Shown here: one piece after another, positions 11,166-57,900 of the stretch
Position numbering within the stretch: the stretch's first letter is position 1
How the letters are laid out: each line of letters begins with the position of its first letter
DNA from: Mesodorylaimus sp. YZB2_4
Taxonomy: Eukaryota > Nematoda > Enoplea > Dorylaimida > Dorylaimidae
DNA length: 64,000 nt
Direction: 5' to 3'
Assembly (NCBI GenBank): GCA_030248295.1
Contig: JASANH010000499.1
Location: 124,001-188,000, forward strand
Notes under the pieces: generated by a model
What the model was told of the DNA's origin: nothing
Seen by the model: only the letters and a program-made list of their open reading frames with translations
The model's database searches: none
Translations under genes and position numbers: made by a program

Positions 11166-11180
11166 TTTCTTTCAAGCTCT

Positions 11181-31386: not shown

Positions 31387-32388
31387 ATGAAGAACACTAC
31401 TTTGATGAATTTTTCAATGCCCATCAGCATCGGTATAACCAAAGGTGAACTTTGGGTGCAACTTGTATTTTTCTACTTGACAATCGGAGGGTGGGCATCA
31501 ATCGTTGGTAATGGACTTATTCTAACTGCTATAATTCGTCATAGAAATGACTTGCATTCACGATTTTTCGTCGTCGTAGCCGCTTTATCTCTGACGAAAG
31601 GTCTACTAGCTTTTCAAAACGTGATCATGACTTTGTACAGAATTTTTCGAACATTTGGTTACGTATCCATAAATCAAAGCAGATTGAACTGTTTATTATT
31701 GCATTTCTTTATGCCCCCCTTATTCACAGTGGAAGTGCTCATACTGATTGTGATGGTCATCGACAGAGGACTCGCCATCTTGGCCAGTACTTTCTACAGG
31801 AACCTCACATCCAAGCAAATGGCTGTTGCTTGTGCTGGCACAATGGTGATTGGTTCATTATTGAAACTAGGCATGGCCTTCGGCATGGGAGATGTCCCTT
31901 TGCTTATGGTGATTGCTTGTGTAAACGTGGCCAGTCCTGTGAGTTCTACTTATCAACTGATCAATGCTAATTTGGATTTGGTCCTGGTACTTATTTTACT
32001 CACATCCTACATTAGCCTTATTCTATTTTTTCGACTGTGCTCGACCACAGTTAGTAATGAGACGGCTGTTGCGAGTGTTAAACGACAGAAAAAAGTTTTG
32101 ATTACTTTACGAAATGTGGTTTTTATTCATTGCGCATTCACGTTGACAGCCAAAATAATCTTGACCATAGGAAGCTCGGTGCCTGGCGACGGTGGTATAC
32201 GACTGATGGCCTATGGTGGCATAATTACACAATGCGACGAGTTCACAAATTTGATTGCCTTGATGGTTAGCAGACCAAAATTGAAAGAAGCTTGCCTCGG
32301 TGGATTGATGAAATTGGCAAGCGCGATGGTTCCATCTTTTTTTACGCAGACTAAAGTGCATCCATCCGGTGGGGTGTGGAAGATATGA
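31387..32388 (+). CDS. Chemoreceptor-like seven-transmembrane GPCR (srsx/srx-type)
   Basis: This intronless 333-residue seven-TM protein starts at ATG 31387, right after a T-rich TTTTTTAG. TM1 has IVGNGLILTAIIRHR and TM3 ends VMVIDRGLAIL (DRY as DRG). TM2 reads ALSLTKGLLAF, without the usual aspartate, and TM7 (TNLIALMVSRPKLKEA) lacks NPxxY. Such loosened motifs are typical of nematode chemosensory families such as srsx and srx, whose members sense small molecules in neurons. The family assignment is by overall pattern only. A 5' untranslated exon is possible because of the acceptor-like sequence. The C-terminus is short and ends after a VWKI tail. Confidence 0.65.
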   Translation: MKNTTLMNFSMPISIGITKGELWVQLVFFYLTIGGWASIVGNGLILTAIIRHRNDLHSRFFVVVAALSLTKGLLAFQNVIMTLYRIFRTFGYVSINQSRLNCLLLHFFMPPLFTVEVLILIVMVIDRGLAILASTFYRNLTSKQMAVACAGTMVIGSLLKLGMAFGMGDVPLLMVIACVNVASPVSSTYQLINANLDLVLVLILLTSYISLILFFRLCSTTVSNETAVASVKRQKKVLITLRNVVFIHCAFTLTAKIILTIGSSVPGDGGIRLMAYGGIITQCDEFTNLIALMVSRPKLKEACLGGLMKLASAMVPSFFTQTKVHPSGGVWKI

Positions 32389-35800: not shown

Positions 35801-36038
35801 AAAAAAAAGAAAAAAACACTTTCGCTCAAGCCCAATATCGTACTTGATCGAAGCAAGTCTGACAGGGAAAATAATGAGTGCCTTGTAAAGAATAGCTAAG
35901 AGGGCAGATGGGCAGCAGACACGGGCCTGCTTGATTGGCACTCGGTCCCCGCCCTGACGCCTTGGCGCATTTCGACTAGTCGTCCTCGCCTGCTCACTTC
36001 GCTGCTTGTTTTTCAGTGCATCCGTCCCTAGAGTCAAC
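32813..36038. other. Intergenic stretch and probable 5' untranslated region
   Basis: No supported gene. A plus-strand frame at 33781-34071 lacks a good ATG context, and another at 34467-34682 follows an acceptor-like TTGTTTACAG; both are unrecognised and doubtful. The end of the stretch (CTTGTTTTTCAG, ending 36016) is a strong splice acceptor upstream of the GPCR start, so an untranslated first exon probably lies within it. Confidence 0.35.
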
Positions 36039-37514
36039 ATGGATGACGACTCCTCACCAATGGCTCATTCGAATGGTCTAGACCCTAGCAAATCAGTGGG
36101 CAGACAGGACTGGCCGACAAATCAAACATTATTATCCCATTTGGATATGGAAAATGATACCCAATTTTTCTCCATCAGTGCACCACCAGAATTTCAAGCA
36201 TCCGACTATGCCGAAATTCTTTTGTTGGCTACTTTGATCATGATTGGCGCGCCGTTAAATTTAATCTCCATACTTCGAACATTACGCTCTGCTGGTTATT
36301 TTGAGTGGATACTGGCTAAACGAGATCACTTCGGGCCACAGTCAGGTCGCAGACGGTCCACAATGCCATCAAGCAAGCCCAGAGATAGTCAGAGTGGTAG
36401 CGTAAATCGAAGCCAAACTGAAGCCTTGTTGCAACAACAACGGCGAAATAACAACGCATCGAATCCTCGACTTTTAACTTTCAAACTTCACTTGACCAGT
36501 GCAAATCTTCTGATCGTCTTCGGCTACGGATTCAGTCAATTGATTTGGCTATGCACATATAGTTGGCGCGGCGGTGATGCTTTGTGTAAATTCACCAAAT
36601 TCTTACACACATTCTGTTTCTACGCCACTTCCAATCTAGTCGCATCGATCGCTATCGATCGATTACGTGTGACAATTCACGTCGATCGACCAGCGAATAA
36701 CAAGGTCACACGTCGTCAGTCCAAGGCATCTGCCGTGGCAGCCGCCAACTCGCACGCCGTTTGGTTACACCGTTTGGTTTGGTGCGCTTGGCTGTTGGCC
36801 ATGCTTAGCAGTGTCCCCCAATTTTTTTTATGGCGTACCTTCGCCCCATTCCAACCGATCGCACCCGACTGGCATCAGTGCGTGACCATTTGGATGGCCA
36901 TGTTCTACAGCGACCCATCCATGGCCCACGACGAGGTCAGGCTAGCCAATGCTGTCAACTACGAACGTATCTACGGAGCCATCCATTTAGCCTTGGTCTT
37001 CTGGATACCAATTCTTGTTATTATTTTGAGCTACGCACTAATTTTAAGTCAATTAAGAAGGAGAATCAGAAAAAGTAATAAGGATCAGAATCACATGTCA
37101 AAACATCGAAGAGAAAGCGAAGCTGTGGTCTTTCGTCAACGATGTGAGACCATGCACAGAGTGAGCATATGCTCAGGTGCATCCCTGAGTGGCACGCATT
37201 CAGGCGAGCATGAATTCCACCCATCTCCCGGATTCCTCATGGAAGTGCCCATTGTTATCAGCAGTGTGCAACCATTTATGTGTCAGAAATCACGCGAAAG
37301 CTTTGCAGTTGTCACATTGACCAAAGCTAGACGAAAAACTGTCAAGACTACAGTTTGGATTTTATTAGCTTACGTTGCTTGCTGGTCACCATATAATATT
37401 TTGGAATTGTATCGATACTGTTTCGATCCTGAGTTTGAAAATGTTTATTTACAATTTTTATCCAATTTAATAGTTCTAAATGCTGTAGTTAATCCAATAA
37501 TTTATGGATTTTGA
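36039..37514 (+). CDS. GnRH/AKH-receptor-like GPCR, paralogue A (tail-less)
   Basis: 491 residues are encoded in one exon, starting at ATG 36039 after a TTTTTCAG acceptor in the 5' leader. TM1 is ILLLATLIMIGAPLNLI. Intracellular loop 1 is unusually long and basic. TM2 reads HLTSANLLIVFGYG, with Asn in place of the normal Asp2.50, as in GnRH receptors. TM3 has GDALCKF...FCFYATSNLVASIAIDR. Loop 3 is long and Ser-rich, TM6 carries ACWSPYN, and TM7 ends LNAVVNPIIYGF followed at once by TGA. Receptors of this family bind GnRH, AKH or corazonin-like peptides and signal through G proteins. The lack of helix 8 and C-tail is shared with the paralogue at 52780-54038. A hidden 3' exon cannot be excluded, but no GT donor occurs in frame at the end. 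Confidence 0.75.
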   Translation: MDDDSSPMAHSNGLDPSKSVGRQDWPTNQTLLSHLDMENDTQFFSISAPPEFQASDYAEILLLATLIMIGAPLNLISILRTLRSAGYFEWILAKRDHFGPQSGRRRSTMPSSKPRDSQSGSVNRSQTEALLQQQRRNNNASNPRLLTFKLHLTSANLLIVFGYGFSQLIWLCTYSWRGGDALCKFTKFLHTFCFYATSNLVASIAIDRLRVTIHVDRPANNKVTRRQSKASAVAAANSHAVWLHRLVWCAWLLAMLSSVPQFFLWRTFAPFQPIAPDWHQCVTIWMAMFYSDPSMAHDEVRLANAVNYERIYGAIHLALVFWIPILVIILSYALILSQLRRRIRKSNKDQNHMSKHRRESEAVVFRQRCETMHRVSICSGASLSGTHSGEHEFHPSPGFLMEVPIVISSVQPFMCQKSRESFAVVTLTKARRKTVKTTVWILLAYVACWSPYNILELYRYCFDPEFENVYLQFLSNLIVLNAVVNPIIYGF

Positions 37515-40236
37515 TGTTACTTTAAAACTTTGCTTATGACAGGCCAGAGTTTTTTACCTTGCTTGGATTTTTCTGTGATAACTTGATTTTCTCCAAAATA
37601 TGATGAGGATAGATGTTTAGAAAGCTTCTAGTTTACGGAAAAATTTTTTGCTATTCACACAGCGCAGCTATGAAATAGATTTTGCGCCTTTGGCTAAACT
37701 AAACCTTTATTTCGTCAGTCACCGCGCCTACCCAATACGCTTTCCATTTTCGTAATGCTGGTGACTGGACGAGCCTGGTTCGACTCAATCATTTCAAACT
37801 TCGAACCCGTAAGGGCGTAAATGGTCATGCCCGTCCCTTTTCCTCCCATCCTCCTAGCAGACCTAATCAGGCACTCAAATTCTGACACCTTTCTTCAAAG
37901 TGAACTAGGACTGGAAGAGAAGGTTTTCCTCTTTTTATCGATGTTGTTATTCTGGCTGCCTAGAGAAGTCTAGTAATCCACTAGGACCCGTCAAATTGAG
38001 CTCCAATCCGAAAAGCCACAAAGTCTGGGGCAGCTAGGATGCCATGCTAACTTGGGGATTGAAGGGTCCTCCTTTGTCTGCTACAGACAGATAGTGGACA
38101 TAGATAGGATGGATTTGGAAGTCTCCTTGCAATTCTTGCTGCTATGAATTTCGAAAGATGCACCAGCGATGGGAGAAAAACATGGAAATGTTATTATGCT
38201 CAGACAAATATTATTGCCTTTAGTGTGCCTTCTTTGGGCTCTTGCCAAAGTTGCGTTCCTGCCAGATCATTGCTGATGTCTCATTTACTGTAGAGTGCCA
38301 CATTTCTTGTGCCATCACAGACTGCTCCTGCAGGACGTAGGTCTTCTCTACTGCAAGCTTGGAGATCATAACTGAATTTTATTCGCGTCAATAGCCAAGA
38401 CTATCTTCTCGAAGCATTATGTCTAAAAATGGGCCAGTTATTACAAAACATACGCCGATCCGGTTTCCTCATTATAGCTTCATTTTCATTCTTAATGAGG
38501 GCATCTAAATTCTGCACACAAACATTCGTGCTCATTGGCCGCTCTCCAAACTTTCCATAGCTCTATTGACAAGTCTACGCTCGAGAGGGTTGTTTATTCA
38601 AATCGCCTAAAGCATTTTCACTCTGGCAAAAATACATATATGCGTTAAAAATGACCCCATTTTCCAAGAAGCACATTTTAGTTCCCGTCTGACGCATCTA
38701 TAAGGCGTTCGATCCCACCACGTGCGTCATGTTCATGAAAGATACAATGCCCGCATTTTCGAGTTATGTTCGACATTTTTCACAAAAATGCGCATACTTA
38801 TTTCTACGGCCGCGAGCTAGGGAAACCATAAAATAATAAAACCCCTAATTACCTCCTTTTTATTGACCTAATTTTTTGTGTCGATAGGCGCTTCTAAAAT
38901 CTACTTATATCTTCATCACTCCATTTCGTCACCCTCTGGAGGCATGGACATTGATCTTCTTGTTTTGCGTGCCATCCCAGAAATGCACTCACCAGGATGG
39001 TCAGATAAAAAAGACATTTTAAGTCGTTGTTGTCAAGAGCGCCACGGATTGTTAGCTTAGGGTCGTTGATTTCTCTTGAGGCAGTCTTAAATGGTATTTT
39101 TCGTGCTCGTATCTTTTACGAGTTTATCGAATTTTTAAATTTAGTTTCTGCACTAAGGTCATTGCGCAGAATGATCGCGTGTCCTTTTTGCAATTCTTTT
39201 CTGCGATAGTCATGTTAGTTTTTTCTGCATGTCCTAAGTTGACATTAAGCCTAACGATGCTCTTTCTTTCTAGCTTGCTTCGAAGAATTAGTTCTGTTAA
39301 TAGCACGTTTGCAGCCATCGCGCACTCATGTGTGCCAAAAGACATGATGACAGATAGGGGAGATCATGCCTTAATCGTGTAGAATGAGCGAACTCATTTT
39401 CATGGCCATGTGCAGAATAGAATGATCAGATCTCAAGTAGAGATTGCGTGAAATATCATGCTGTATAACCATCAAAAAGTGGAGCACTTTCTCTAAAATT
39501 TGTAAGTACTTTACGTGAAATGCCCAGAAATGCAGTAAAATGTTCTGGCTCACACAATAAATAGGTGTAACCTTCTGTGCCGCGCTGTGCCTTCTACTTT
39601 TCATCTTTTTATTTACTAGTATACTAAGTAGTCAGGCTTACCTTGCAGAATTAGAATCGACGGAAAAGCCGAGTTATAACTGCAGCTGCCGCTGAAGAGC
39701 TGTGCACATTCGGCTGCCCTCCATAATTTGCACATCAAAAGGAAAGGCTAGAGGTCCGAAGTTTATGTTGGCACCGTTGCGCCTTGGCTGATTCCGTTTA
39801 AAAAATACATAACAGGTATATGCAAATTTTTATGAACTGTCTATTTGTACTGTATGAAACAATGTACACAACGGACATGATGGTTGGCTGTGGTCACGAG
39901 AGAATATATTTATCTTGTTGCATTCCTAAAAGATATACCTATACCAGCAATTTGCACATCACATAGCTGCTTGGACTGTCACATCACTATGTTTCTAAAG
40001 TCCGTCTAAAGTTTGCATGATTAATGCATTTTAGTGCAGTGTCTAAAAACCCTGTTCATCTACTCAAGGCACCTTGAAAATGTTTTTCTTTTTTTAGCTC
40101 TTATTGGTTAGCTGTATTTGTTGCAAATCCGGAGGATGCAACTTTCTTGAATTGTTGCTTTCGCGCTGTTTAGACGGAACTTTTATAACTACAGACCGCG
40201 TTATCTAAACATTATTTGTCCTCCATAATGCGGGAC
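37515..40236. other. Intergenic stretch, no gene identified
   Basis: Several short open frames on both strands lack motifs. I see no convincing gene or repeat apart from low-complexity AT-rich DNA. Confidence 0.35.
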
Positions 40237-40790
40237 TCCGTAGGTATGCGTACATGTGTATGTATATATTTATTTATCTATCAATATATATACATGCATA
40301 TATGTGTATAATGTGCATAATAAAGCACATATATATGTGTGTTTATATATATATATATATACTGTTTACACACATGTGTCACACATTTGCGCTAAACTTT
40401 GTAAAGCGGTATATATATATATATATAGTATATACGTGGATTAAGCTTTGTAGCTAGATTTATACCCATGCTACACATATTTATACCAATGTTTTGCATA
40501 TATATGTACCGCCCATACACATATATGTATGCCGTTTACATACATATCGTGTATATATACTGCTTATGAACATATACGTACTGCTTACTCACATATATAT
40601 ATACTGCTTACATACATAGATATACTTCTAAAAAAACATATACATACTCCTTATATGGATATATATTTACTGACTACATACAAATATATATTGTTCACCT
40701 ATTTATTTATATAGCTTATATAAATATATATATACTGTTTTTATACATAGTTATACTGCTTATTTACATACAAATATATATATGCTGCTT
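40237..40790. repeat. TA-rich satellite
   Basis: About 550 bp are made of TATATA runs interleaved with a loosely conserved unit of about 20-35 bp, CATACATATATATACTGCTTA, seen repeatedly between 40520 and 40785 with variants such as ACTGCTTACTCACATATATA. It degrades outwards. The open frames through it are Tyr/Ile-rich artefacts. Confidence 0.9.
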
Positions 40791-40887
40791 CCGAAAGTTT
40801 AGCATTGCTATGATTAGGCTTAGTGATCTTTAGACCGGCTTTGAAACGGTTTTTAGGGCGACTTTTTGAGCCTCTCTTCCACTGTTA

Positions 40888-41861
40888 GTCACGGCCGGAT
40901 CAGTTCTATATCTTTCGGTTCGGTTTCGGTTTCGTTCTAGCTAATCGGTTCGGTGTGGTTCTCGGCTCTTTCGGTTTCGGTCCTAAACCTTTCGGTTCGG
41001 TTCAATTTTTCGGTTCGAGAGCACTTGGTTTTTCCAGTGCAATCTAGCCTCAGCTTAGACCATTATCTGTAATATTTTACCTCCTCAAAACATGCTGCAT
41101 AGCGAATCGAAATCATAGAAAATTTAAGCAAGCCACATTTTACGCTGAATAATTATATGAATTCTGAGCAATCAGTTCGCGCGCAAGCACACCTTCATTG
41201 CCACTAGGCTGGGGTTTGAATCGAGCGAGCTAAGTGTTACCAGGCCTGCAACGCGACAATGCCCCAAATGAAGGTTCAAATTGCCCTGAAAATCAACGTC
41301 CCAAAAATGCAAAGAAGGCCCTTTGGAAAAAAAACCGCTTCCCAGACACCGAACAATATTCTAGCGAGCCATTATGGCGCATTTGAATGCCATATCAGTA
41401 TTCAAACGCGCCAAAAACTTCCAATGCTTCGGCGAGATCCACCCAGCTTCTTATCATTGAAAACACCATTTGGAACAGCGGCATTGTTGAGAGAGCTAAG
41501 ACAAAGTGCCAATATCTAAAGATGCCCTAAAAATGCCCTTGAAATCTCAGACTGCCCTAGAAGTGTCCTGCCCGAAAAAGTGCCCTGACAGTATACAATA
41601 CAATTTCCCCAGATTTAGGCGATTGCCCTGCACCTGGCGGCAATATTGCGGCCAGTGATCTGCCAGTGTGCTGCTAGCGTGGGGGGTAAGGCTCGTGTGT
41701 CCTTTGCTGCAGGGTTGCGCGACACCAGCTGCTTGGTGCGCCATGAAGCCAAAACAATTTCGATTTGGTGCACCGAACCGATGTTTCGGTTCGACCTCTT
41801 TCGGTTCGGTTCTCGGTTCGGTTCTGTTCCAAATCGAGAACCGAACCGATCCGCTTGTGAG
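40888..41861. mobile_element. Nonautonomous DNA transposon with GTCACGG ends, copy 2
   Basis: This is the second copy of the element at 1035-1816, in the same orientation. It starts GTCACGGCCGGATCAGTTCT, has an extra run of CGGTTCGG-type motifs at the left, the same interior (for example CTTCCCAGACACC, TGCCAATATCT and GCCCT words) and an AACCGAACCGATCCGC end. It is longer by about 190 bp, mainly in the subterminal CGGTTC arrays. Confidence 0.75.
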
Positions 41862-43804
41862 CCGTGAGGTATCTTTATCAGATTACTAAGATCGGCTACC
41901 ATTTCACCTTGCTTTTAGCCATATTTTGCAATTTCTGAAGCCACATAGCTACTTTAATCGGATTAAAAGATTATTGATCAAAAACGTTTTGGTTTTCTCA
42001 TAGGAATTTTCGCCGTTTGCTTCTGCGCTTCGAAAAACTTCCAAAGCTCTGCTTTTTATTTACTTTTCCAATCCCAAAAACCTTTTGGCAAGGTTAAGGC
42101 CTCACTAATTCTGCCTGATACTTGAAATCCTTAAACCATCCCAGAAAATCTCCCTCTGTGTTTCCTGTCAATGGGTTAGTGTACCAAATGCGATAGAAAA
42201 GTTTGATTTACTATGGCTAATTAAACTTCAGCCACGACTGATGATTATCAGATTGGAAAATCGACAGATAGGTTATGATGAGTACACGGGCTGTGACTCA
42301 AAACGGTTTGCTGATCTCAGGACAGTTGTGCTGCCCACCTGAGTGAACAACCACAGTGTCCTTGGGACTGCCTGGGCTTATTGTCTGATTGCAGACTGCC
42401 TGAGAATATTCAGTAACCGATTGCGGTTTGCCTGAGTTGATTGCCAATCTCTCCCCTGGTAAGACCTGAGCGGCCCCCAAATGGATGGCGATGCGAAATC
42501 AGCTTCGACTGTGTCGGGTGGATAAAAAATATACACATTTTTTATCCACCCGACTCCTCACATCCTCTGACGAAGTGCATGCTGCTTCGAGCCTTTGAGC
42601 CTTCGAGCCCTTATGAGAAATATCGAACACAACTACAGCAGATATGCACATACTGTACAAGCAATGACACAACACGCACCGCATGTACAGTTGTTAAAGT
42701 TGCTTGCTGTTAGACCTCAGCAAAATAGAACGCTGCTGAAATAATGACAATCCACACAGTCATGTAACAGACCATTATAAAAATCATGGCACCACGTTAT
42801 AATTGGTTCTCCTTGCGTCGATTTCTTCGTTTCAGGCTCAACAGAGAATGTGTTTTGCTTTACCTCACGATTAGCGCTGTTGTCATCAGTGACCGTTTGC
42901 TGGCTTGTGAAATTTCTGTTAAATGAGGTAGCATTGTCATAGTCTGAAATACAATTGCTTGTATCTCCCTATCACTCCAGCCAAGCTACATTCGGAAAGT
43001 TACCCAAGGGCGATGACGGCGAAGTTTCAGGTCAGGTTTCAGGGTTTTGTCTGCTGAGAAACAGTTCATATGAGTTACCTCGTGATCATGAGGAGAAGGG
43101 CTCCACGGTGGACTAGGCGTCGTCTGGAAATACCCGCCGTCGCCATCTGTAATCCATCCAATAAAACTTGGCCAAAGTGATGAAGAAGTCGGCCTCTCAT
43201 CTCGTTCTCCGTCGTCGATGCCAACGTGACGTTAAACAGGAGTTGAAGTGGATGATCTCTAAGGAGGGAAAAGTGTGGGTTGGCTTCTCCGACTACTTGC
43301 GCCAGCCTCAGATATTCCAGCATTTGTTGCAGATACCAATAAATACTTCAGTGAAGTCAGCTATACCTTATCATAAATGTTTTCCATCTTCAGCAGACGA
43401 CGTTGGTTCTTATCTGTAGCTTTGCCTTGTAGTATTGCCAACGTGGCACAAATTAAAGCCCACGTAAATATATTTTGCCCCATTCTCTAACAAACTGAAA
43501 ACAACGTTTTTCTTGACCTAGGCACCTTCCTGCAGCACAGGACAGGGAGACAACAGACTACACTGTACCCTGGATAACAGGTATGCGGACTGTTGATGTC
43601 TAATCTCTACAGCTGTTATCTGGATGACATTTTATGCAGCAGCTATTTTATTCACCATTGTCACTTGTGAGTCAGCTACTTTAGCATTTTTATTATGAAA
43701 CAACAATTGAAGGGAGCTAATGATGCGTAATAAGAACACAGAGCTGTTGTATTTCCTTGATTATTCATTGACACTCGCTTGATATAGGCAATTTCGCAAA
43801 CTAA
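41862..43804. other. Intergenic stretch with a doubtful minus-strand exon
   Basis: A minus-strand frame at 43075-43323 (about 82 residues, LQLLFNVTLAS...HHFGQVLLDG) has natural composition and ends at a GTAACT donor-like site, so it may be an internal exon. No partner exon was found. The hairpin at 42514-42553 is listed separately. The rest shows nothing I can annotate. Confidence 0.3.
42514..42553. repeat. Perfect 17-bp inverted repeat with 6-nt loop
   Basis: The arm TCGGGTGGATAAAAAAT (42514-42530) has its exact reverse complement at 42537-42553, with ATACAC between. It is not part of any recognised gene. Confidence 0.9.
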
Positions 43805-46800
43805 TCAGTGATTAACATGCCAGAAATCAAGTACGTACGGTACGTACGGTATGCCTGTGAGTGATAAACAGAAATGCGAGGTGATTACGAATGCCAAGGT
43901 GAAGAACATATTTCCAACTTCCGGTGCGCTGCCTTGAACGTGGCTTTTATCAATAAAATTCTTCACGCAACTGGGAATTTTCAGCTCAACTTTTCGTTTA
44001 GCGGCGGTGTCATTTAGAAAGGTGATAAGGGCTAATTTAGCTTCTACTTCTTTTTCCCAATACGAGTCGAAATCAACGTTTTTGCAGCTGCTTTTGAGAG
44101 CATTATTTACGCACTCGTAATAGCAATACTCTTTCCTAAAATTCGAAGCTGCGATATTAACAGCCGACCGTAACAAATGAACATCCGGCCTTTCAGCCAG
44201 GTGCAACATTCGGTCCCATAACCCAACTCAGCCCATTTTTTTGGGTTTTGGGGGGTTTTGGGTCAGGTTTTTAGACAGGGAGGTTTTTGGTTGCGGAGGT
44301 TGACCTTTATTCGAACCCAACCAAAAAAACACTTTTCCGCTTGGGGTCAGCCTTATTCGTCAGCCTGACTACGTGGTTGATCGCAACAGAGCATTGAAGC
44401 CGCTGCCATCTGATGTCCGTTGGTTTCGAATCGACAGATGCTGCTGCTGGTGTTTCAAAGTTGTACCCAGTGCCCCCAGTTTATCTAATTCGACATGTCC
44501 GTCTGATTGTGATAGAACTGAGAAAGCGTTTGTCAGCAGATGATATCGAGCTCTGACCACACCTCTCGTCGATTCGCAGTCAGAGATCAGGTCTTAATTT
44601 TGAGAGTTTCAAGACTTTGTCGGTCAGAATCCTCGAAGGCCTCTTGCTTTTAGGCAGGGGATGGGCTGTTTTTGAGAGTGTGATTTCTTGCCTTGAAACA
44701 TGTATTTCCTGCAAATTTGTGTATAGACTAGTGAGAAATTATATCCACGAGAGACCAATTTTGCAAAAAGTTTGCCTTTGGCGGGGGGCGGTGGGTGCGC
44801 CTCCGCCCCTTTCGAACGCTGCGCCGTCGGTGCTTATCCTTGAGCTCTAAATTATAGAATTTGTGCAACTTTTTGTTTGGCCCCCAAGACCCCGAAACCC
44901 TGCACGCAAGCGAGCTGACGTGCCACCGCGGCTCTATTGGTGGGTGAATAAATATGATATATGTAAAATATATGTCAGTGTCCTGGTGAAAATGGACCCT
45001 CAGCTGGGGTCATGTTTTTTGAAACTTGCAGCTTGAATGGTCGCTAAGATATGCGCAGGTATTTCTCAGGTCTTTGGTTGTGTTTGAAGGAGTTAAAAAA
45101 TCGAATTTGGAGATGCAGTCAGATTAGCTCATGCCAGTTCATTACCTCCCTGATAAGTTGCTTCTGGTATCCATGGAGAACTTTTCTGAATGTAGATGAA
45201 GATGCGACTAAGACCACTGCTCAAAAAAAGTGAATCGTAAGGTCGTCTTTCAGAGTTATGAGCACTGTCAATATGCGCTACACGTCACCCCTTGGGAGGC
45301 CAGGGGAGACTCTTCCGCTATCCTCCAAACTTCTCTCTCAGGGAAGACAGTCGAGTAAAACCATTATGCTAAGATTACTTTCCCTCACGATCAGGTCGCT
45401 TAGTGATAGCATTTCTACAAAAATTATAGCATCTGAAGAATGATAGCATTTCTACAAAAATGTGCTTTACACTGACCTGATGTACAAAAGTTGTTTTTAA
45501 AGGTTTCAGTCAATTTTTTCAAATAAAATATGGGTTTTTATGGGTGGGTTGACGTATTTATCGTTACAGGAAATCGATATCCTTATCGTTATCGTTAATC
45601 GTCAACGCTATGTACGCTAGGTTGGGTTTGTCTTCACTAGCGAATGGGTTGGGTTTGACTTTATAATAATGGGCTTGGGTTGGGTTCGACTAAAAAATTT
45701 TCGGGTTAGGTTTGGGTCGAACTGTGAACCCATTGTCAGACCTGGAAAGCAATGATCGAAGGAAAACTTACAGCACTTCCCGCACAACCCTCTAGCACTT
45801 CGAACAAAGCGATAGCGGGTTGTGCACCGCCGCAAAGTCAACGGACAAAAGTGGGTCTGCTTACTCTTCCCTAGCCCTTCAATGTTTCCGAGAATGAGTT
45901 GGGTACCCATTCTTTCTTGCAGTGCTCTAATGCAAAAGGGTCAACGTGTCCAAGTTTCAGTAGGTTACACGCACAGCCTTCACTCAAACCAGCGTTCAGG
46001 AAACTGTACTTACTGACAAGAAATTTCGAGATAACTTTGGACATCAGCCAGTTGAGAATTGTCGCCCATAACCCATTGCCTCAGTTGGGCCTCGGTGTCT
46101 TTGCTGTCGGGTAGCATGGTATTGCACTTTACTTCGTCGCAATCAACCTCTATTTGGGTGCAATGAGTTATCGCGCAGTCTACGTCTTCATCAGGTAGTG
46201 CTAAACGAGCGCAAGTCATATCCTTTCATTGTTCTTACAGGAACGTTACCACCCAAAAAAGTATTGGTGACCCCTAATGACCCCACACTCAAAATTAGAG
46301 TTGGACGATCACAGCTTCACTTTTAGGTTTTACGAAAACAATTTCTGTGGCTTAGGGTTTTCTGTAGTGGGAATTCTTATTTTTCGAATTGGTAGGTATA
46401 GTTCGGTATGCTAGGTGGAAACCATGACTTGCTGCTTCAGAGCGAGGAATCAAATGTTTTTTGTGGGCCTGTTTTGTGATTGGTAGTAAGTACCCCATGA
46501 CTGTATTGTGTCGCAAAAGTAAAAATTTTGTTTCACTCCAGCTCCATGGAGAGGCGCATAAAAAGGTCTCACTTGGGCGATACTGGCCATACCTAACTAC
46601 CTGACCGCTGGTCCTGGAACGATGTAAAAAATGTCAAAATGACCACTAGATAATAAGCTATCGAGTTCTTTTTTAAATTTTTTCCTCTCCCACTATTTGT
46701 GAGATATTCCCGCCTAAAGTCAAAATTCAAAATTTTTCACTTATACTTCAGCGAATAACTCGAAACAGAAAATCGAACACCCCTCTAAAAATTTCATCAT

Positions 46801-48432
46801 AAATTTTGTGCCCCTTGGTAGCCGCTTCCAAAAATATAGGTATTTTATATACTTTGCCTTTACATCTTTGGGTCAAAATCGCAAAAAACGCCCATACAGT
46901 AGTGTTTGCTATGGTTTCATTTCACGATTTTTCGGGATTTTCAGTTCACGACCAAAGTTTGGGGATACTGTACATACTGTATGTAGGCGATATCGCCCAA
47001 GCAACACGTTTCTCGTGTATTTCCATATGGAAGGGGTGAAAAACATCTTTGACTTTTACGGCACCATACACTCATGGGGTACACTAATAACAAAAAGCAA
47101 AAAATATCTAGGGGTCAAAATTTTTACTTGGCAAGGCTTTATTTGAACTTTGCAGAAACCCTGTCTTGACTGGGAACACCTCAATGCGAGAGTATCCTGG
47201 ACTAACGATAAGTCCCGACTTCCTACGAAACTGGTCGCGGGGCGGGCTTTGTGCTCGCAACTCGAATTACCCGCAGTTTGCAGTAAGTATGCAACGCTGC
47301 CTGCGACCATTAGAAAAATTGTGCGTGTCACATTGCAGGATTAGACGCATGTTTGAGCCCTGACGGTGCTGGACAGCCGAGACTGTCTTCTCGTTGTCTC
47401 CCGTCTCCGCACTCGGGGCACCACGATGGTACTAGGTGACTCACCCACGTCCTGGCGTGCAAGGTCTGCGAGGGTTTGTGGCTCGCAGACCGACCTCTAT
47501 CACCAGGGATCGAACATGGCAGGAGTCCAGCCACTCGCTCTCAAGAAATACGGAGAGACGAATGCTGAGTCGCTGCACCGCCGCGGGCGTTAGGGATCCA
47601 ATGTGATTGGCCTACTTCCAAAAACTTTGTAGGAAACTATTTCTAATCATGCATATATTCCGATTTTGCTATGCCGACCACTCTTCAAATATGCTAAGAA
47701 TGTATGGTGCCTTAACTAGAAGGAAATGCTTGCACAGGAATAAGTGAGAAAATTATTCCGCGCTCAGGTCTTGGGTTTACAAAAATACGGGCGGGTACAT
47801 AAGAAAAATGCTTGTCTTACCGGAAATATATCTCTCTTGGTTGCATTGTGACAACTCACGTATGTCATGAAGAATGCGCTCAAACCTATTAAGCGCAGAT
47901 GAATTTGAACAGCTCGCCGAACATTTGATGAAATTCGAATAAGCAGCGCATAGTTCCTTCAGTTGCGCTTTACTGTGGTATTTACAAGCCGTGTCGTACA
48001 TGCCAGTAGGAGGCAGTGTGTTGCTGACTGAACAGTTCGATACGCATGCGCCATCGTCCTCGTAAATGATATCTGCTAACTGCAGCGAGTTCTTGCATCC
48101 TAGAAAATCAATCCACTTGTCATTCTTTGGTGGACAATGAGTACAGTGGAATAAAGTGTGCTCAGACCAGTCCTGCTTGTGCCAGTGAACGGGAAACACT
48201 TTGAGCATTTGAACAAAACTATATAGCTAGCTCAAATGCCGGTCAGCGAAGTTTCTATTGTAACGTCAGCTGCGTTCGAATTTGGTCACGCGGGAAAAAA
48301 ATTGAGCTTGTACCTACATATGGTTATCCCTTTTCCCCATATCCCTTTCGCCCTATTTTTATTGGTGAATTGGCTAGTTTACTTACCTCGAAATTGAATT
48401 ATTAGGAGCACACAAAAGAAGACCAGGTACAT
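43805..48432 (-). CDS. Cysteine-rich secreted or surface protein, four exons
   Basis: The exons are 48387-48432, 47821-48198, 46014-46200 and 43805-44135. They join with matching phases (1, 1, 2) to an uninterrupted 313-residue protein. The first exon is a signal peptide (MYLVFFCVLLIIQF) ending at a GTAAGT donor. The mature part has 19 cysteines, many in pairs (FHCTHC, GACVSNC, IKCSASC), and N-glycosylation sequons such as NSS and NDT. A C-terminal hydrophobic segment (MFFTLAFVITSHFCLSL) suggests a membrane or GPI anchor. The cysteine spacing recalls nematode CPG4/DUF19-like secreted proteins, but I cannot assign a family. The last intron (44136-46013) is 1.9 kb long and filled with repeat sequence. 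Alternative acceptors upstream of exons 2 and 3 exist, but only these keep frame and phase. Confidence 0.65.
44210..45740. repeat. GGGTTGGG-type dispersed repeat inside an intron
   Basis: Both ends of this block carry GGGTTGGGTT/AACCCAAC-like motifs: CATAACCCAACTCAGCCCA and GGGTTTTGGGGGGTTTTGGG on the left, and GGGTTGGGTTTGACT, GGGTTGGGTTCGAC and GGTTTGGGTCGAAC on the right (45620-45725). By analogy with the CGGTTCGG-ended elements it is probably an inserted transposon, but the ends are not defined. Confidence 0.4.
47360..47595 (-). repeat. tRNA-derived SINE-like repeat, family B
   Basis: This is a reverse-oriented copy of the repeat at 12585-12830. It shares AGACCGACCTCTATCACCAG, GGGATCGAAC (B box complement), CTCGCTCTCAAGAAATACGG and CGTCCTGGCGTGCAAGGTC. 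Confidence 0.75.
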
Positions 48433-50382
48433 TGTGCCTGTGAAGCAATACTTTAGTGACCAGTTATAATCTAACGGCACAGCCACAGTATACCATCCGA
48501 TATCTATAAAACAAACCTGCGAGAAATTTCTCTATTGATGTGGGTCAAACGCTAGGAGAGAGCGGATACAGAGTAACCCATCATCGGAATATCAGGTCTA
48601 AAGTAGATCTTATCGAGTCACTTTCCGCCCACTCCCCTCCAACTCACTGCAAGGCGGGCTCATAACGAGGCTGTTGCTGCTAAGAAACAGGATTTCCGTG
48701 CGCCCAAACCCTATTCCCATTGCAGGGCAGCATATTCTGGAAGAAGGGCACAATGAGTTCAAGTCAATCTTGATTCCTGGCTGATTATTTGTTAGAAGAG
48801 CGAATGATAGTTAAACATATAGCGCAGCTACCATGAAACTGGAATTAGCAGGCTTGGCCTAGCATGATCGAGAAAAACACTAATACGATGGGTATTCGGA
48901 TTTAGAGCAGGGTATCAATATTAAATACTTCCATTTATACAGTACAAGGAGACATCGACCTGGAAACATTGAGCCTATAAAAAGTTTGTGGGCGCACATA
49001 GCCGGCGCGCAGTAGGCAGCTACAGCTAGGTCTAAAACCGATCTACTAGTAGGTATATGAGAAACCATGGCCTCTTACCGATGCAGAATACTATGCGCAT
49101 AAGCCATCTGTGCACAAAACTATTTTGTAGCTCCTAAAAATTATATTGCCAGCCTAGACGGCCGTCCAGATACCAGTGTTCAAAAATTACATCAGGAGTT
49201 AGTAATCTGAACACGTACGAGAAAGGGAGATTCCAAGAGATACATGCATAAAAAATAAGCATAAGACAGCAGGTGCAAAAAAATTAAAACAGAGAACAGT
49301 GAAAAAATAGGTCTATTATCTTTTTACCAGATTCTACTAAGCTGGCTTTTGCAGCTGAACTGGACTGACGATGAGTGAGCCTGGACAGAAGCCAGCGGCT
49401 GTCGGGAGTAATCGATACTCTCCCCTTGCTAAGAAATGTCAACCTCTTCGGTTGATGTTTCTGGCAGGTATAGTCGCGAGACTTGCTCACCTCCAGTCGA
49501 AGTTTTTGCAAAATGACTTCGGTCTCGACTATTTCCCGCCCCTGGGTACGCTGTTTACACCGCTAGTCAGTCTACACCCGACCTGTTTTAGTATAGCTCA
49601 GTAGCTTGTTTGACTGCGATGAAGATAGTCGTTGACGCAGTTGAACAGTTTCACGAAATTGGCAGAATTGTAGCCGAGGCAGAATCAGAATTGTAGCCGT
49701 GGATGGACAGCCGCTGAGGCAGAATCAGAATTGTAGCCGTGGATGGACAGCCGCTGAGGCAGAATCAGAATTGTAGCCGTGGATGGACAGCCGCTAATGT
49801 GGTGCTTGGTACAAAAGGGATACAACTTTTTCCTCCACACACCACGAGCGAACCAGGAGCAAACAAAGGGCACAGCCGTCCCGGACCAAACCCACGCATA
49901 GGCCATCCTATACAGTAATAGGAACCAGGCTATCCTGTCTTGTCTTGGCGTATGCGGATGGGCACTAGAATAACTGGAAATGCAGACCAGCATAATCGCG
50001 TGTTCATCTTCGCGACAAAGATCAAGAGACAGTCATAAGAAGGATATGCTTACTTGAAGCAAAACGTTTGTCCTGGTTGGTTCGGTCGGTTTGATGGTTT
50101 GGTTGAAGCAGGGTGGGTCACTAAGTTCCAACAATTTGTGGCCAGCTCCTCTACGAACTTCTAGGACGTTCCACCTCCCCGTAAACTGTTTTACAGTAGT
50201 TTCTTCCCTAGATATTTGGGTTTCTCAACTCAACGTATACAGTACAATAAGCCACCAACTTTTATTGTGAACAGGATTCCTCTTTGCTATACTCCTGGGC
50301 CGCCCCCATGCCGCGTGGGCCACCTGGAGCCAGCTGTCGAAGGCCTGCCTGAAACTCTATTTTACAATCCCTGTGCAAAAAT
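48433..50382. other. Intergenic stretch, no gene identified
   Basis: This presumably holds the promoter of the minus-strand cysteine-rich gene near 48450-48700. Apart from the 40-bp tandem repeat at 49676-49795, I see nothing to annotate. Confidence 0.4.
49676..49795. repeat. 40-bp tandem repeat, three copies
   Basis: The unit begins GAGGCAGAATCAGAATTG and ends GGATGGACAGCCGCT. Copies start at 49676, 49716 and 49756. The second and third are identical; the first matches them, and a partial copy precedes it. Confidence 0.95.
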
Positions 50383-51094
50383 TTAGCATTCGGAACGTTC
50401 AACGACCCTGGGCTCACTTGATTGACGTGACTGCTTGTTTGCAACCAATCCGAAAACGGAAAATTCGTGATCCAGTTTCGAGTGCAAGCCTTCTGCATGA
50501 TTCGTCGTCCTAGGTCCAGGTAGACCACGCCAGCGATCAACTGTCCGCCAAACATTATCAAAATGGTTCCAGGCTGGAGCATTGAAGCTGCCAAAAAGCC
50601 AAGTGTTCTGAACAAAAGGAAGCTGCAGCATCTGCGTAAATTTCAAATAATTGATTTTCCCTTACTTGAAAATATCAAATGAATTCGAGTAGTCGATCAC
50701 GTAAGTGTGGCTCATTCAACCGCGGCATCGATTGCACCAAATGATTTCAAGCGACATGTACCAAATCAGACGGAAGCAAAGCCGTAGCTTTAACTGTGTG
50801 CACCCATCGTTTTAAACAAGTGTTTTCGTTGTCGTGAGGTACCTTCAAGCCGTGGGTCTGCATCCATCGAGTCAGAGATTGCCCGAAATGAAATGAGCAG
50901 CCTAGAGATTGCGTATTGTACAGTACACGTTTCGAACGGCCTAAAAATTTTTCACTTATGCGTAGCACCTCTTTAACCCAAGGGGCTGGGCTGTAATGGG
51001 CATACCTCCATCGCAGCTTTTGTGACCATTTGACATTGCTCGCGATGACCGATAATCGGATCAGTATCGATTCGCAGGAATACGGCGCTCCCAT
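50383..51094 (-). pseudogene. MULE-type (Mutator-like) transposase remnant
   Basis: Two minus-strand frames (50747-51094 and 50383-50646) carry the C-terminal half of a MULE transposase: LGCSFHFGQSLTRW, then GLKVPHDNE, ALLPSDLVHVA, and after a gap NTWLFGSF..PAWNHFDNVWRT, PRTTNHAEGLHSKL. This order (GC.FH..Q, then WN, then RTNN..EG.H) is characteristic. The join contains in-frame TGA codons, one where the family has Trp (HVA-stop-NHL) and one before YFQ. It also has a 34-nt GTAAGG...ACGCAG segment that looks like a tiny intron. I read it as a pseudogene. No zinc-binding or DDE N-terminal half is left. Confidence 0.7.
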
Positions 51095-52234
51095 TTTGGG
51101 CGCTCAGCTGGGCCATCTGCGCACCACTTTATCGCCGCGCGGATGGGGCGGCTGCGCGGTCATTTTAGTGACCAGAGCTGGGCCAGCCCGGAATGGCATG
51201 TGGCGTATGGGGCTGCAGCCTGTAGGGATGGAGGGACTTTTCTTTCCCAGTGGCAAAGAGCGCCTAGCGGGTAGAATGTAATTTTTCAAGCAAAGGCCCT
51301 GTACTCTATACCTTTTTTGAGTTTTGATGAAGCGCCATAGAAGGCGCGCTGAAAATTAAAGTGTGCTATGTGAACTCCCGCAAAAATTATGGAGAACTAC
51401 CGTCGTCGGAGAAATTTAATACCGTGACCAGCCTTTTTAAGGGGAACTTCTGAGAAATCAAATGGATTTTCGTCCGTTATATAACAGACTTTGAACTAAA
51501 GGGTGGATGGGACTGAACGCATTTTCTCTATTTCTTGCGGAACCTTCTGGTAGTAAAAGTTATTGTTTGTCAATCCGAAAACTTCGACGTCGTGGAAAAA
51601 TAAAACTCTCTTAATCTGGCACTTTCACCCATGGCTATATGTGCTCACATACTATAGCAACGGTTTTACCACAGGACAAACAACCCAGTTCTGCGTCCTA
51701 AAATATGGGCTTCGATGGGCCAGCTGCGCGGCGCAAAATGGAAGCAACGCTGGCCCAGCTGTGCGTCGAAATTCGGAGCAAAATATACCTCCGATTCGAC
51801 CGTTTTGTACAGTAACCCAAGCTTTTCATTCTCGATTATGGTCACTATTGTTGACTAATAGTAAGTCGCATTCCCGGCAATCACAGTATGTGCTCTCGCC
51901 ACAATTCGACTTTTTTTTAAAAAAATAATAGTTGCCCAGATTCGCAGGATGCTCGTAAACAAGCATTCTGCGATTTCATATACTTCGTCAAGACGAATCG
52001 CGCCTGGCCAAAATTTTCAGCCATGGTCACGTTAAAACGCTACTTGCAAGTGGAGAAGAAAGAGAAACGGCATGACTATTGCCAGGAAAAACGACCGACT
52101 ATAGCCAAGGCAGGATCCTGCATTTAGTTCAATCTACATAGACACTAATCATCACTAACTGGTCGCCATCCTGATGATGCAGGTATGCCTGGATATTCAA
52201 ACGCTGCGCACCTTTCAGCCTGGTCTTAATAAAG

Positions 52235-52388
52235 GGACGCTGGCCCTATCGGGACTGGCTGTAAAGGGAAACTGGCTGAATCGGCACTGGCCGTAAAAGG
52301 AAACCGGCCGAAACGAGACACTGGCCAAAAAGGGACGCTGGCCATAAGAGGATTCTGGCCACAACGGGTCGCTGGCTGAACGGAGACG
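52235..52388. repeat. 17-bp minisatellite, nine units
   Basis: The motif ACTGGCCGAAAAGGGA and variants recurs with CTGG at about 52240, 52255, 52272, 52287, 52304, 52321, 52338, 52355 and 52372, a spacing of 15-17 bp. GC content is well above the surroundings. Confidence 0.9.
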
Positions 52389-52779
52389 GAGCCTGTACGA
52401 CCCGCGGGGTTCGAATTTAGCTGTGCGGATTTTCATGAAACACCCATGATCACTTTAATGACATAAACGAGCCACTCCACTGTACCTGATTCAGACCTGT
52501 TTCAGGCTCGGTCGATTCTTACTAGCAACGCCGATTGGCATAGAACGTTTGAAGTTCCCTCTTTGGTGTTGACAGTATAACCTGGTTTCTTTGAGAATAT
52601 AAGCGCCCTCCACGCTCCGCATAGTGCCGCGTGTATATTCTTGAAAAAAACCAGATAATAACTAGACTGATCTGCGCTTGATGCAGCTCAACTTTTGGTT
52701 GAGAAATGCCCCATTGGAAACCGCTTTGCAGATGCAACGACTTTTATAGATCCCACATGTTGCACTGGAGGAACAGAAT

Positions 52780-54038
52780 TCAGTCATAACCATAAATAAA
52801 TGGATTCAAAACAGCATTGAGCACGATCAAATTAGCTAGCAACTCCAAGTACTTATTGTCTAGTTCAGGATACATAAAGAAGCATAAGGATGATATGTTA
52901 TATGGTGACCAGCAGAGAAAATAAGCTAGCATTATCCAAGCTGATGTTTTCAAAGCTCGTTTCTTGGCTCTGGTCAATGTAGCCACAGCTATACTGGACC
53001 TGGCAGAAGCCGGTTTGTGGTCTCCTTGTTCAAATGTGAATATTTCCGAAGCATTCGATCCTTTGGGTGTGACGAGAGAATGTGGTGACAAAGAATACTG
53101 AGCTGATGGTGATGATAAGCTAGTAGTGTCCACTCGAGGGCGTGGTGTCCGTAAATAATCAGAGTCGCTCAATTTGCTGAACGCACTGTCCGACGGCGGC
53201 ATTGATGAAGCCCCTTGATGACCATCCGATCGTAGCTCATTGTTCGTATTCCTTCTCGAACCCAGCTCAACAGTGACTAGTGTTATCGATTTTTGAAACC
53301 TACATACAATTAAGGCGTAGGATCCGGCTATGATGACGGCTGGAATCCAAAAGACAAGCGCCAAATGAAACCCTTCATAGAGACGCTCATAGAAGACGAC
53401 ATGCGTGAAGGATGGATTAGATTGGTCGAGCATATATTTCTCAACTTTCCAAATAGTCATGCATTGCCTCCATTCCGACCACTGCTCGGGGTCTGGTTGA
53501 AATGTCCTCCAGATGACCACTTGAGGAATGGCACCGACTGCAGCGATCATCCAAGCCAGACAAGGGGATATCCGGATACACGTAGCCCAGTGTCCATGAC
53601 TAAATATCGATCCAGGACGATCGATATTTTTCGCTACATATGATCGATCGAGAGCAATAGCAGCTACCAGATTCGAGGTGGCGTAAAAACAAAAAGCATT
53701 TAAATAAGCCATCGCTCGACACAGCCAATCGCCCCCAAGGTACTGATAAGTACTCAACCAAGCCACCTCTCCAACCCCGTAAACGCATAGAATTAGAAGA
53801 TTAGCCGCCACTAAATGGACTCGAAGAACGCTCAATCGTGAAACATGTTTTTGCGAGTGACCACCATTTGACGAAGATCCAAAGAATAAAAAAGTGCAAC
53901 AACTCGTCTTCTTATTTCTCTTACGACGGGCTTTTTGCAATTGCTTTTTTATCAGTCGTAAAAAACAAAATAAATTAATAGGTATTCCAAATAGCATCAT
54001 ACAAGCAAGAATGCCGATTTCAGCAAAATTTAAAGTAT
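52780..54038 (-). CDS. GnRH/AKH-receptor-like GPCR, paralogue B (tail-less), main exon
   Basis: The frame is open from a likely splice acceptor (GGTCCAG, exon starting 54038) to TGA at 52780. The first residues TLNFAEIGILACMM continue TM1 upstream of the internal ATG at 54000, so the true start lies in a missing upstream exon; a candidate ends at a GTAATC donor near 54254. TM2 has HLVAANLLILCVYG with Asn at 2.50. TM3 is GGDWLCRAMAYLNAFCFYAT and ends ALDRSYV, very like vertebrate GnRH receptor LDRS. Loop 3 is long and Ser/Pro-rich. TM6 has LCWSPYN and TM7 ends LNAVLNPFIYGYD, then stop. The peptide-hormone receptor role is inferred from the family. It is a clear paralogue of the receptor at 36039-37514, in opposite orientation 15 kb away. 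Confidence 0.75.
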
Positions 54039-54956
54039 CTGGACCGCAAATAAAATTTATTCATATCTCTCTTTCCCCCTCCCTTCCGAGAGGGAGGGCC
54101 GCACGCCTCCTCCAAGGAGAAAAAGGGAAGCCTTTCTCCTCCCCCTCTTCTCCCCCCCTCCTTTAACCCTTCATAACATCATACTGAACTTAACGGTGGT
54201 ACGTGCGAGAACGCTTTAGAACAAGCGTGTGGGACACAATTATGTTTTGATTACCTCCCTTCAAGTGACGTGTTTGCACCAGTGTACGTAAGAGAAGCAA
54301 ACGTGCGCATTTAATCTCGCCGGCAGTATTCTGTGCAAAAATGTTAAATGTAGTCGTTAAGAGGCTGTAACTTGACCAGGTCAGGGTGTAACAAGACCAA
54401 CTAATAACAAGGTTCCTACTGCGCGACAAATGGGTGCTTTGCAACAACAAACTGACCTTTCAAAAGACAAGCATTCAGTGCGGGTGTCTTGCTTACGACA
54501 AACATCCTATCTTTGGTTAAACTACTTTGACGCGGAAAACGAAGCGTAATAGCATTTGATGGCGCCTTAGAAGCCTTGAAGACAACTTTACAAATCCTCT
54601 TAGGAACAGTTCTCTCATTGCTAGTCGCGCGACAATGCAAGCACTCTGCCGCGAAATTTGTGATATTGTCAAGTCAGCCGTAGACGCCTGACCTGAACTG
54701 CTGGTATTTTACAAAAGAAAAGTCTTGTCGCTGAACTTCACGGCAAGCAGAAAAACTCAACCAACAGGGTATACGTACATCTCGAAAAACCATGGCCCCG
54801 CGCAATAAAACGATAAAACATTTCGAAAAAACGTGCGTGCTTAAGAAAATCCTATCAAATGTCAATCACAAAAACTAATTCTCATTTGACTATCGATTTA
54901 TCACTCCAAACAATACAATTATAAAGGTTGAAGAAAAACTAGGTCAGTGCACCGTT

Positions 54957-57900
54957 TTACGTTAGCGACCACGGCGAGTACTGTTTCTCGACCACAAATG
55001 CTCGAAAATAATCACGTTGATTCCAAGCCACAGGCACCAAAGCCACTTTGACTTGATCCCCAGGTCTGAGAATAGTCAATAGAACCCTGCCATCCTCGTC
55101 GTCTATGATCGGCATCACATCCTCTGGCATTGCGTGTACGATACCAAAACGTTGATTACGTAATTTCCAGAAACAAGGAGGCAACGTGGAAGTAGCGTAC
55201 CATTTTCGAGGTATCATACAAACTTCGTCCACAATGGCGTGCATATTGGAAATAATTGATGGCGACGGTACGTTGGGCAAAATCTTTGCTGAAATTGGTG
55301 CTTCTCTTACCTCGTAAACAGTCCAAGCGTCGCCTTCAGTGTTGAACTGTCGCTCGTCATTGCCGTTGTAGAATGCACGGACCATAATACGTTGAAACGG
55401 ACGAAATGCAACGTTTTTCAAGCACCATCTCCAAACAGTCATTCGACCAAGTTTCTCACTCCAAACTGTGCCGAAGCGGTTGCTAAGAACGCCTATAAAA
55501 CAACATTGTCGATATTGTGTTCTCGTTGGATCAAACAAAATATGCCACCTTATGCACATATGTTACTCCCAACGCTGTGTCGAGAATTGAATGCTCACAC
55601 AGTTTTTCTGGCGGCTTCCGCTACCTGTATATGCATTATGTTCACGCACTGTTGTTGTATGTGTGCAGATTTTTACTTTTGGTTTTTAGACTTTTTAGAC
55701 TTGGAGCACTTGAGCAAAGTTCAGTTTTTCCTACAGGCCACGTACTACAGCAGTCAAACCAGGGGCAGACGCACGGCAGCTTCAGGCACACGAGCGCATC
55801 TTGGATAGGACAACGTCTTACTCGGACGATGGCGACTGGGTTCTGCACCATGGCGGTGTTGTATAGCTGAGTCTGCCGGCTCGCTTGGCTTTCGTCCCCG
55901 CATTTGGAGCACCCCGACGGTACAGGTGAGCAGGCTTACGATGCGACCTCCTGTCTTCCAAGCCCAGTCGCTAGCTGCCACGATACTGGTAGCTAGCAGC
56001 ACTGTTCCAACATCGCGTCTGCTTCCTACATGTTTGCTAAAGAGACCGAGATGGACATTGAAAATTAGAGCTCGTTCCATCTGTGACGTGGCTTCAAACA
56101 AGATCGATATTTCAGATCAGCATAAAGATCACAAAAGTGCCGCGATAATGCTGGTTCTAAAAAAACAGTCAGAAATCCTGACTGTGCGATCACGACCCAG
56201 AAACTTTTGAGGAGAATCACCCGTGTGACGGAAATAACAAAGGAAAAATTACCAGAAATACTCAACTAATACGCGACGGAAATTTGTGTTTAGGTAGGAT
56301 TATTTGGAAATAAAAATTTGCAACCTACTCTTTAATGCAAATGTTTTAAAAATAACATTTCATTTCATTTGAAAATCTGCGCATACACCCCTTGGTTTAC
56401 GAAATATAATCAATTAGCTAATGCAAAGCTGTTTCTTCCCGTATTTACCCTCTTATACATTCACCTATGAAATATCATGAGAGTTCATGGGCATACCACA
56501 TTGTCGCGCGACATGCAGTTAGAGCCATGCTGGCATGCTGCAGCAGGGACCATTTTTTGAGGAGGGGAGAATCATAAGCCAAGCCAGCCCTATAAGGAAA
56601 ACTAAAAGAGTACTAGTAACCACAGAAAATACCTTTTAAGAAAGTGATGTTTTTAGAATTTTTCACTTGCTTTTTTACTTCTAATCTTAAAAATATGCCT
56701 GCAGGTTTTAGTTGTGCTTCCATTGCGTAACTAAAGCTACGTCCATTTCTATGCAGCCGGATATTGGCAGTCAGACAAAACTGCTGTATGTCGGTACATG
56801 TGTACCTACTGATATCTTTGCCCTGGAATCAGATTGATATGGAGTAGTCCCACCAGGCCACGAGGCCGTGGCCTGGTGGGTTGGGCGTCTGCCTCTCACG
56901 CCAGGTGCGCAGTTACGGGCGAGTGTTCGACTCGCGGGCTGGTAAATCATTTCGTGTAAAATGTGTCCCTTCACCATCGAGTGCGCATAAGCGTTTGATA
57001 ATGTGGTAAAACATGAACAAACGTGAACATAAACATTAGTCACTTGCAGTATCAGCAGGATCACACTAGAGATTTATGATAGATCTTTTTGTTCTGACGA
57101 GGAGGTGACTGAATAGTGCACGTGCGTGTAACAAGAATGCAAGCGATCCGTTGAAAATTAGGGGCTTGCAGAACCATGGGGGGGGGGGACAGGTAAGGTC
57201 GAAAGCAACAAGCACCCCGTGATTCACGCTACGATGCTCTCCTATAGATATAATCTGTTCAAAAACATTTACAGGGAGTCCTCCAAAACACAACATCATC
57301 CCGTCGTCTTGACGTTATCAAAACATCTACAAAATACATCTGACACGTGTGGCCGCTCGAATTACTAACAAGTTTATCCGCGCATAAAAAGAAAATGTTT
57401 TTAGTGACCTTTAGAATTTGTTGAATCACGTGAGAGAAAAAACACATTTTTCAATAATCAACAAAACGTGACATTTGAATTTTATGATAAATTATATACC
57501 TATGTATTTCTAGTCAGAAGCAGAAAAAGGCAGAATGACTGACCCTGCAGAAAGGTTGGACTATACGCTAGGAAAATGATGATTACGAAGATATCCTATT
57601 GCTTGTCAGCACGGTCTAGATTGTCGCGCGACATGCAGTTGGAGCCATGCTGGCATGCTGCACCCACTAAAAGAACTGATATGAGCTACTACGCCAAGTC
57701 TTTTTTACATGATCGTCAGGAGCAGAGTAATGTACATGAAAACTGAAAAAGTGAGCTAATTTATATGGCGACTGGTCTTTGCCGTAGTCCATGTGTTGTG
57801 CATCTTGTAACCGAATTTCCCTTCTTGTAACTCGTGCACTCGATCGGGCGCGACCGACTTCGACACTCGTTTTGCAAAGGCATGCTTAGGCGCTTTTTCC

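Follow-up and report, generated by a model that had tools for sequence, protein, structure and literature searches.

A tail-to-tail pair of GnRH-receptor-like GPCRs in a dorylaimid nematode with open reading frames that end directly after TM7

Tailless type I GnRH receptors are described from mammals and back to chimaera and coelacanth (PMC4232701). The missing tail and an Asn at position 2.50 are given as major differences between the type I receptor and the other subtypes (PMC3912137). The human GnRH receptor combines its Asn2.50 with Asp7.49 and Glu2.53, a possible source of charge for a cation (PMC5662886). The lack of arrestin-dependent desensitisation in mammals has been attributed to the missing tail (PMC5662886, PMC8741216).

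The receptor ap-GnRHR of Aplysia resembles the pair described below in belonging to the GnRH superfamily, in coming from a protostome and in the length of its third intracellular loop. Unlike the pair it has a C-terminal tail, and its authors describe other invertebrate receptors of the superfamily as tailed too (PMC4964986). The GNRR family of C. elegans comprises eight members (PMC7303124), of which GNRR-1 is encoded by 6 coding exons and has a long tail that lies partly in the last exon (PMC1762030); in the pair the TM core is in one exon and a tail is unseen. Because the GNRR-1 tail spans an exon junction, a tail exon is normal for the GNRR family, which counts against taking the pair as tailless. 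Ciona GnRHR-4, a paralogue among the GnRH receptors of an invertebrate, is described as short-tailed (PMC5592718, PMC7697785), and given this receptor, tail reduction in invertebrates is not quite unprecedented. It differs from the pair in being a chordate orphan and a heterodimer partner (PMC5592718), and its tail is 'short' and not 'absent'. Among the literature matches listed, none described a protostome receptor of the GnRH type that lacks its tail, which is a weak negative.

Here, we describe two receptors that look, at the sequence level, as if they were built like a tailless GnRH receptor. They lie in a window of 64,000 nucleotides from the nematode Mesodorylaimus sp. YZB2_4 (contig JASANH010000499.1, positions 124,001 to 188,000), and all coordinates below are positions in this window.

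The two receptors and their family

Gene 1 (36039..37514, plus strand) is a single ORF of 491 codons that runs from the ATG at 36039 through TM7 to a TGA at 37512-37514, with a Pfam 7tm_1 match of 1.2e-26 and the GnRH receptor as its best PDB sequence match (6.4e-14). Its ATG lies 22 bases beyond the end of an acceptor-like TTTTCAG (36010..36016, plus strand, read directly), a candidate cis- or trans-splice acceptor that we take to be like the nematode consensus. Gene 2 (52780..54038, minus strand) is a paralogous receptor exon covering TM1 to TM7, with a 7tm_1 match of 4.1e-24 and again the GnRH receptor as best PDB sequence match (8.4e-19); its frame is open from 54060 to the TGA at 52782-52780 (418 codons). 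The original prediction had placed a receptor gene at 52780-54038 on the minus strand. The ORF, strand and stop hold, but the interval is not a complete gene and represents an exon that lacks a start codon, because 54038 directly follows an acceptor-like AG (54040-54039), the end of TTTGCGGTCCAG (54039..54050, minus strand, read directly). The exon opens just upstream of TM1, its first whole in-frame codon being at 54036, and a search for an N-terminal exon of gene 2 returned several weak candidates, none of them convincing.

The genes are arranged tail to tail, with their 3' ends facing each other across about 15 kb, and they are indeed the two paralogues on opposite strands that had been predicted (BLASTP 1e-76, 41% identity). 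Both carry the marks of class A (rhodopsin) GPCRs, namely the 7tm_1 profile and the DRx, CWxPY and NPxxY motifs. The predicted GnRH-receptor-like identity is upheld for both, the GnRH receptor being the best solved-structure match. Among PDB chains only, gene 1 scores 54.7 bits against the GnRH receptor and 49.2 against V2R, which is a small margin; gene 2 scores 70.7 against 51.9, likewise among PDB chains; and a profile of the pair has the GnRH receptor as top PDB match (76.0 bits versus 62.7 for vasopressin V2). Judged from these PDB chains, the pair is placed in the GnRH/AKH/corazonin receptor superfamily, nearer to GnRH than to vasopressin/oxytocin receptors. Given this superfamily and the nematode source, nematode GNRR (in C. 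elegans, GNRR-1 to -7 and DAF-38/GNRR-8) is the expected family. No relatives of the pair were found in one scan each of viral_contigs and genome_contigs, and tblastn within the window found neither a third copy nor a tail-bearing fragment (one extra match for gene 1, at E 0.93; zero for gene 2). AlphaFold models from two-row alignments were unusable, with a mean pLDDT of 41.3 and 39.3 and a pTM of 0.27 each.

Gene ends, splice sites and the sodium pocket

Both genomic ORFs stop right after TM7, as had been claimed, and within these exons neither encodes a helix 8 or a cytoplasmic tail. Gene 1 ends in N-A-V-V-N-P-I-I-Y-G-F-stop, with the NPIIYGF codons at 37491..37511 (plus strand, by sequence and motif reading), and gene 2 ends in N-A-V-L-N-P-F-I-Y-G-Y-D-stop. 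Tyr7.53-Gly7.54 is identical in the two paralogues and stands one or two codons ahead of the stops. Two other GPCR ORFs found in the window continue, as read by eye, beyond TM7 in the same exon. Each gene has just one in-frame TGA, which is its last codon, and Trp is encoded by TGG (13 codons in gene 1, 11 in gene 2); TGA is a true stop in both, because Trp is read from TGG and the cores are free of in-frame TGA. An alternative genetic code was considered and ruled out by the same facts.

At the DNA level, the observation is confirmed: it is robust for gene 1, whereas for gene 2 one alternative by splicing is left. No GT or GC starts between 37489 and 37515 in gene 1, and a canonical intron therefore cannot add a tail without removing NPxxY. 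Gene 2 does have a donor-like site, GTTATG (52785..52790, minus strand), which lies in phase 1 inside the last Gly codon and was scored with an approximate donor matrix. Read as ATG|GTTATG at 52790, it falls at the 83rd percentile of the 6909 GTs that the two strands of the window contain. It is a possible splice donor but an unremarkable one, and by way of this site a spliced tail is possible for gene 2.

Tail exons were sought in several ways. In 37515-52779, protein matches between the plus and minus strands were listed down to the 25th best, and no tail exon common to both genes was among them; the strongest, viewed singly, fell in palindromes, inverted repeats or the TA-rich repeat. The filters for single genes passed only frames that had a phase-1 junction and a helix-8 motif of the form F-[RK], and they would miss a tail of unusual form. 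For gene 2, the helix-8 pattern started none of 28 acceptor-preceded phase-1 frames in a strict search and none of 47 in a relaxed search confined to 52779-48228, for which controls shuffled in two-base blocks gave hits in 1 of 10. On the plus strand, one of the 28 acceptor-preceded phase-1 frames considered for gene 1 had a helix-8-like start, at 44002; this frame is out of the gene's reach because gene 1 is without a GT donor in that phase.

Positions 2.50 and 7.49 were placed by alignment to human Asn87 and Asp319, with the human numbering taken from PMC5662886. Alignment and motif reading agree with the predicted Asn at both positions in both receptors: Asn2.50 is residue 156 of gene 1 and residue 79 of the gene 2 exon, and Asn7.49 is residue 485 and residue 411, respectively (gene 2 numbered from 54036). 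Position 2.53 is Ile in both, and neither sodium pocket has an acid at 2.50, 2.53 or 7.49. Of the marks of a type I GnRH receptor, Asn2.50 is present, and NPIIY and NPFIY stand in place of the DPxxY that holds Asp7.49; the pair is not of type I, because Asp7.49 is absent. The same Asn/Asn pair as in genes 1 and 2 arises in the mouse GnRH receptor when Asp7.49 is changed to Asn, and coupling efficiency then goes down (PMC5662886).

The likeness to tailless type I GnRH receptors that the original prediction had drawn is nevertheless supported by the absence of a tail from the genomic ORFs and by Asn2.50 (PMC5662886, PMC3912137, PMC4232701), and it extends to CWxPY, to DRS in gene 2 and to the best PDB match. 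The vertebrate type I receptor has Asp7.49 and Glu2.53, where the pair has Asn7.49 and Ile2.53 (PMC5662886). Also unlike vertebrate type I receptors, the pair has a very long ICL1 and ICL3, and its ORFs stop one or two residues past Gly7.54. The human GnRH receptor ends a few residues further beyond Gly7.54 than the pair.

Tail loss and competing readings

We regard independent tail loss in GNRR-like receptors as the best reading, and as one that is somewhat probable. The locus would then hold tail-to-tail duplicated GnRH/AKH-receptor-like (nematode gnrr-like) neuropeptide GPCRs from which helix 8 and the C-terminal tail are absent. The stop would be the real protein end in both genes, and the tail would have been lost ahead of the duplication, or lost twice. 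Binding of a peptide ligand would open the TM bundle, and coupling to a G protein would proceed as usual via the DRL/DRS, CWSPY and NPxxY switches. With helix 8 and the tail gone, arrestin would find no tail phosphorylation sites, and shut-off would be slow or reliant on the long Ser/Thr-containing loops. If transcripts confirm the ends, the pair would add a separate case of a receptor architecture that is rare and still debated as to its purpose: a mouse GnRH receptor with an added tail left the LH surge blunted and not blocked, and the adaptive meaning was left open (PMC8741216).

More tentatively, and with considerable doubt, we propose that a branch of invertebrate, probably nematode, GnRH receptors lost helix 8 and the tail before the duplication, independently of vertebrates, again with Asn2.50 and with no acid at 2.50, 2.53 or 7.49. 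If this is true, tail loss together with Asn2.50 would be a repeated, linked route to slow-desensitising GnRH-type receptors, and loop-based control would replace tail-based control. A second independent tailless lineage with Asn2.50, in an animal without a pituitary, would provide a comparative test of the functional link between the two changes.

Gene 2 might instead be normally tailed, with the tail encoded in another exon that is joined through the G|GT site at 52790, so that only gene 1 is tailless through loss of its splice donor; its homologous site is GA and not GT, and translation would enter the former intron. We consider this rather unlikely. It draws strength from the alignment, in which gene 1 reads ATG|GATTTT at the position of the gene 2 donor-like site, and from that site being the best-scoring GT scanned from 52900 to the stop. 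However, the site deviates from the donor consensus at positions +3, +5 and +6, and the strict and relaxed searches for a helix-8-like exon start in gene 2, whose filter would pass over an unusual tail, came back empty. It would also need two close stops by chance: at the stop density between the genes (0.0466 per codon), the chance of meeting a stop within 3 codons in each of two unrelated read-through exons is 0.018 (about 2%).

Less likely again is a recent truncation or decay of gene 1 or of both genes, in which a contiguous tail was lost by a nonsense change and the ORFs represent pseudogenes, null alleles or misassemblies and not an evolved tailless receptor. What speaks for it is the frame after the stop of gene 1, where 23 codons are open (37515..37583, plus strand, in-frame reading) and begin like a helix 8, C-Y-F-K-T-L-L, with Phe-Lys at stop+3/+4 and Leu at +6 and +7. 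Some helix 8 starts have a Y-x5-F spacing, which this Phe fits. Since the frame reads like the start of helix 8, the tail loss of gene 1 may be recent, or its stop may be polymorphic or a mark of decay. The likeness weighs against a tailless state of long standing and counts against the best reading above as well. The pattern (F at +3, K/R at +4, hydrophobic at +6 or +7) follows 7 of 1421 intergenic stops (0.49%) and Phe alone at +3 follows 76 of them (5.3%), both counts being back-calculated from printed fractions. Gene 2 likewise has Phe at stop+3, followed by no basic residue. On the other hand, the likeness in gene 1 was noticed post hoc, a run of 23 open codons is found after 33% of stops, and codon scoring of this stretch is indecisive (scores as high are reached by 30% of 553 intergenic fragments, and scores as low by 26% of 104 coding blocks). 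Both TM cores, moreover, are free of internal stops throughout their 491 and 418 codons and keep their switch motifs, and if both genes were decaying, two independent losses would have struck at nearly the same codon. Stop-codon readthrough or recoding could in principle make use of the 23 codons beyond the TGA of gene 1 to add a tail, but this is very improbable. No Rfam family, SECIS included, reaches its gathering score in the window, and at E up to 5 the 18 Rfam matches in 37300-40500 include no SECIS and are all under gathering scores. The stop contexts are TGA-T and TGA-A, and not the readthrough-prone TGA-C.

Intracellular loops and neighbouring sequence

With bounds set by hand from motifs, ICL1 and ICL3 measure 67 and 96 residues in gene 1 and 43 and 115 in gene 2, and the loops of both receptors are 19-28% Ser/Thr. 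Both first loops are unusually long for class A. With an ICL1 and an ICL3 of such great length, tail loss does not imply 'no desensitisation'; the long third loops of both receptors could be doing the tail's job. Arrestin phosphocodes in ICL1 and ICL3 were not above 2000 shuffles, which makes loop-based arrestin control a possibility and not evidence. Both receptors may thus desensitise slowly or by way of their loops.

Several other features were seen in the window, where Pfam was run on chosen ORFs. A rhodopsin-type GPCR ORF at 27791-29014 (minus strand; 7tm_1 7.5e-11) has its stop directly behind a short stretch that resembles helix 8 (FSTSTRKQFLRAIK-stop), and a further GPCR ORF at 31321-32388 (plus strand) matches 7tm_1 with 32.4 bits and the nematode chemoreceptor model Srsx with 31.3 (cut-off 24.1), the latter in line with a nematode source. 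Between the paired receptors, the minus-strand stretches 43805-44227 and 47777-48226 are open, contain Cys and may, by eye, be exons of one secreted protein (no Pfam match); 40240-40430 is a TA-rich simple repeat with Rfam miRNA matches under gathering scores. Two ORFs of 201 and 224 aa (54957-55562 and 58456-59130) lie on the minus strand, that of gene 2, and have no Pfam match. Two large ORFs occupy 5694-8242 (plus strand), the first with a P-loop and a weak UvrD/AAA similarity just below the Pfam cut-off. Finally, a reverse transcriptase fragment, LINE-like by eye, lies at 10418-11179 (minus strand), with RVT_1 at 1.6e-12 in 10796-11179; the ORF 10418-10792 has no Pfam match and reads like a continuation of the adjoining RVT_1 fragment.
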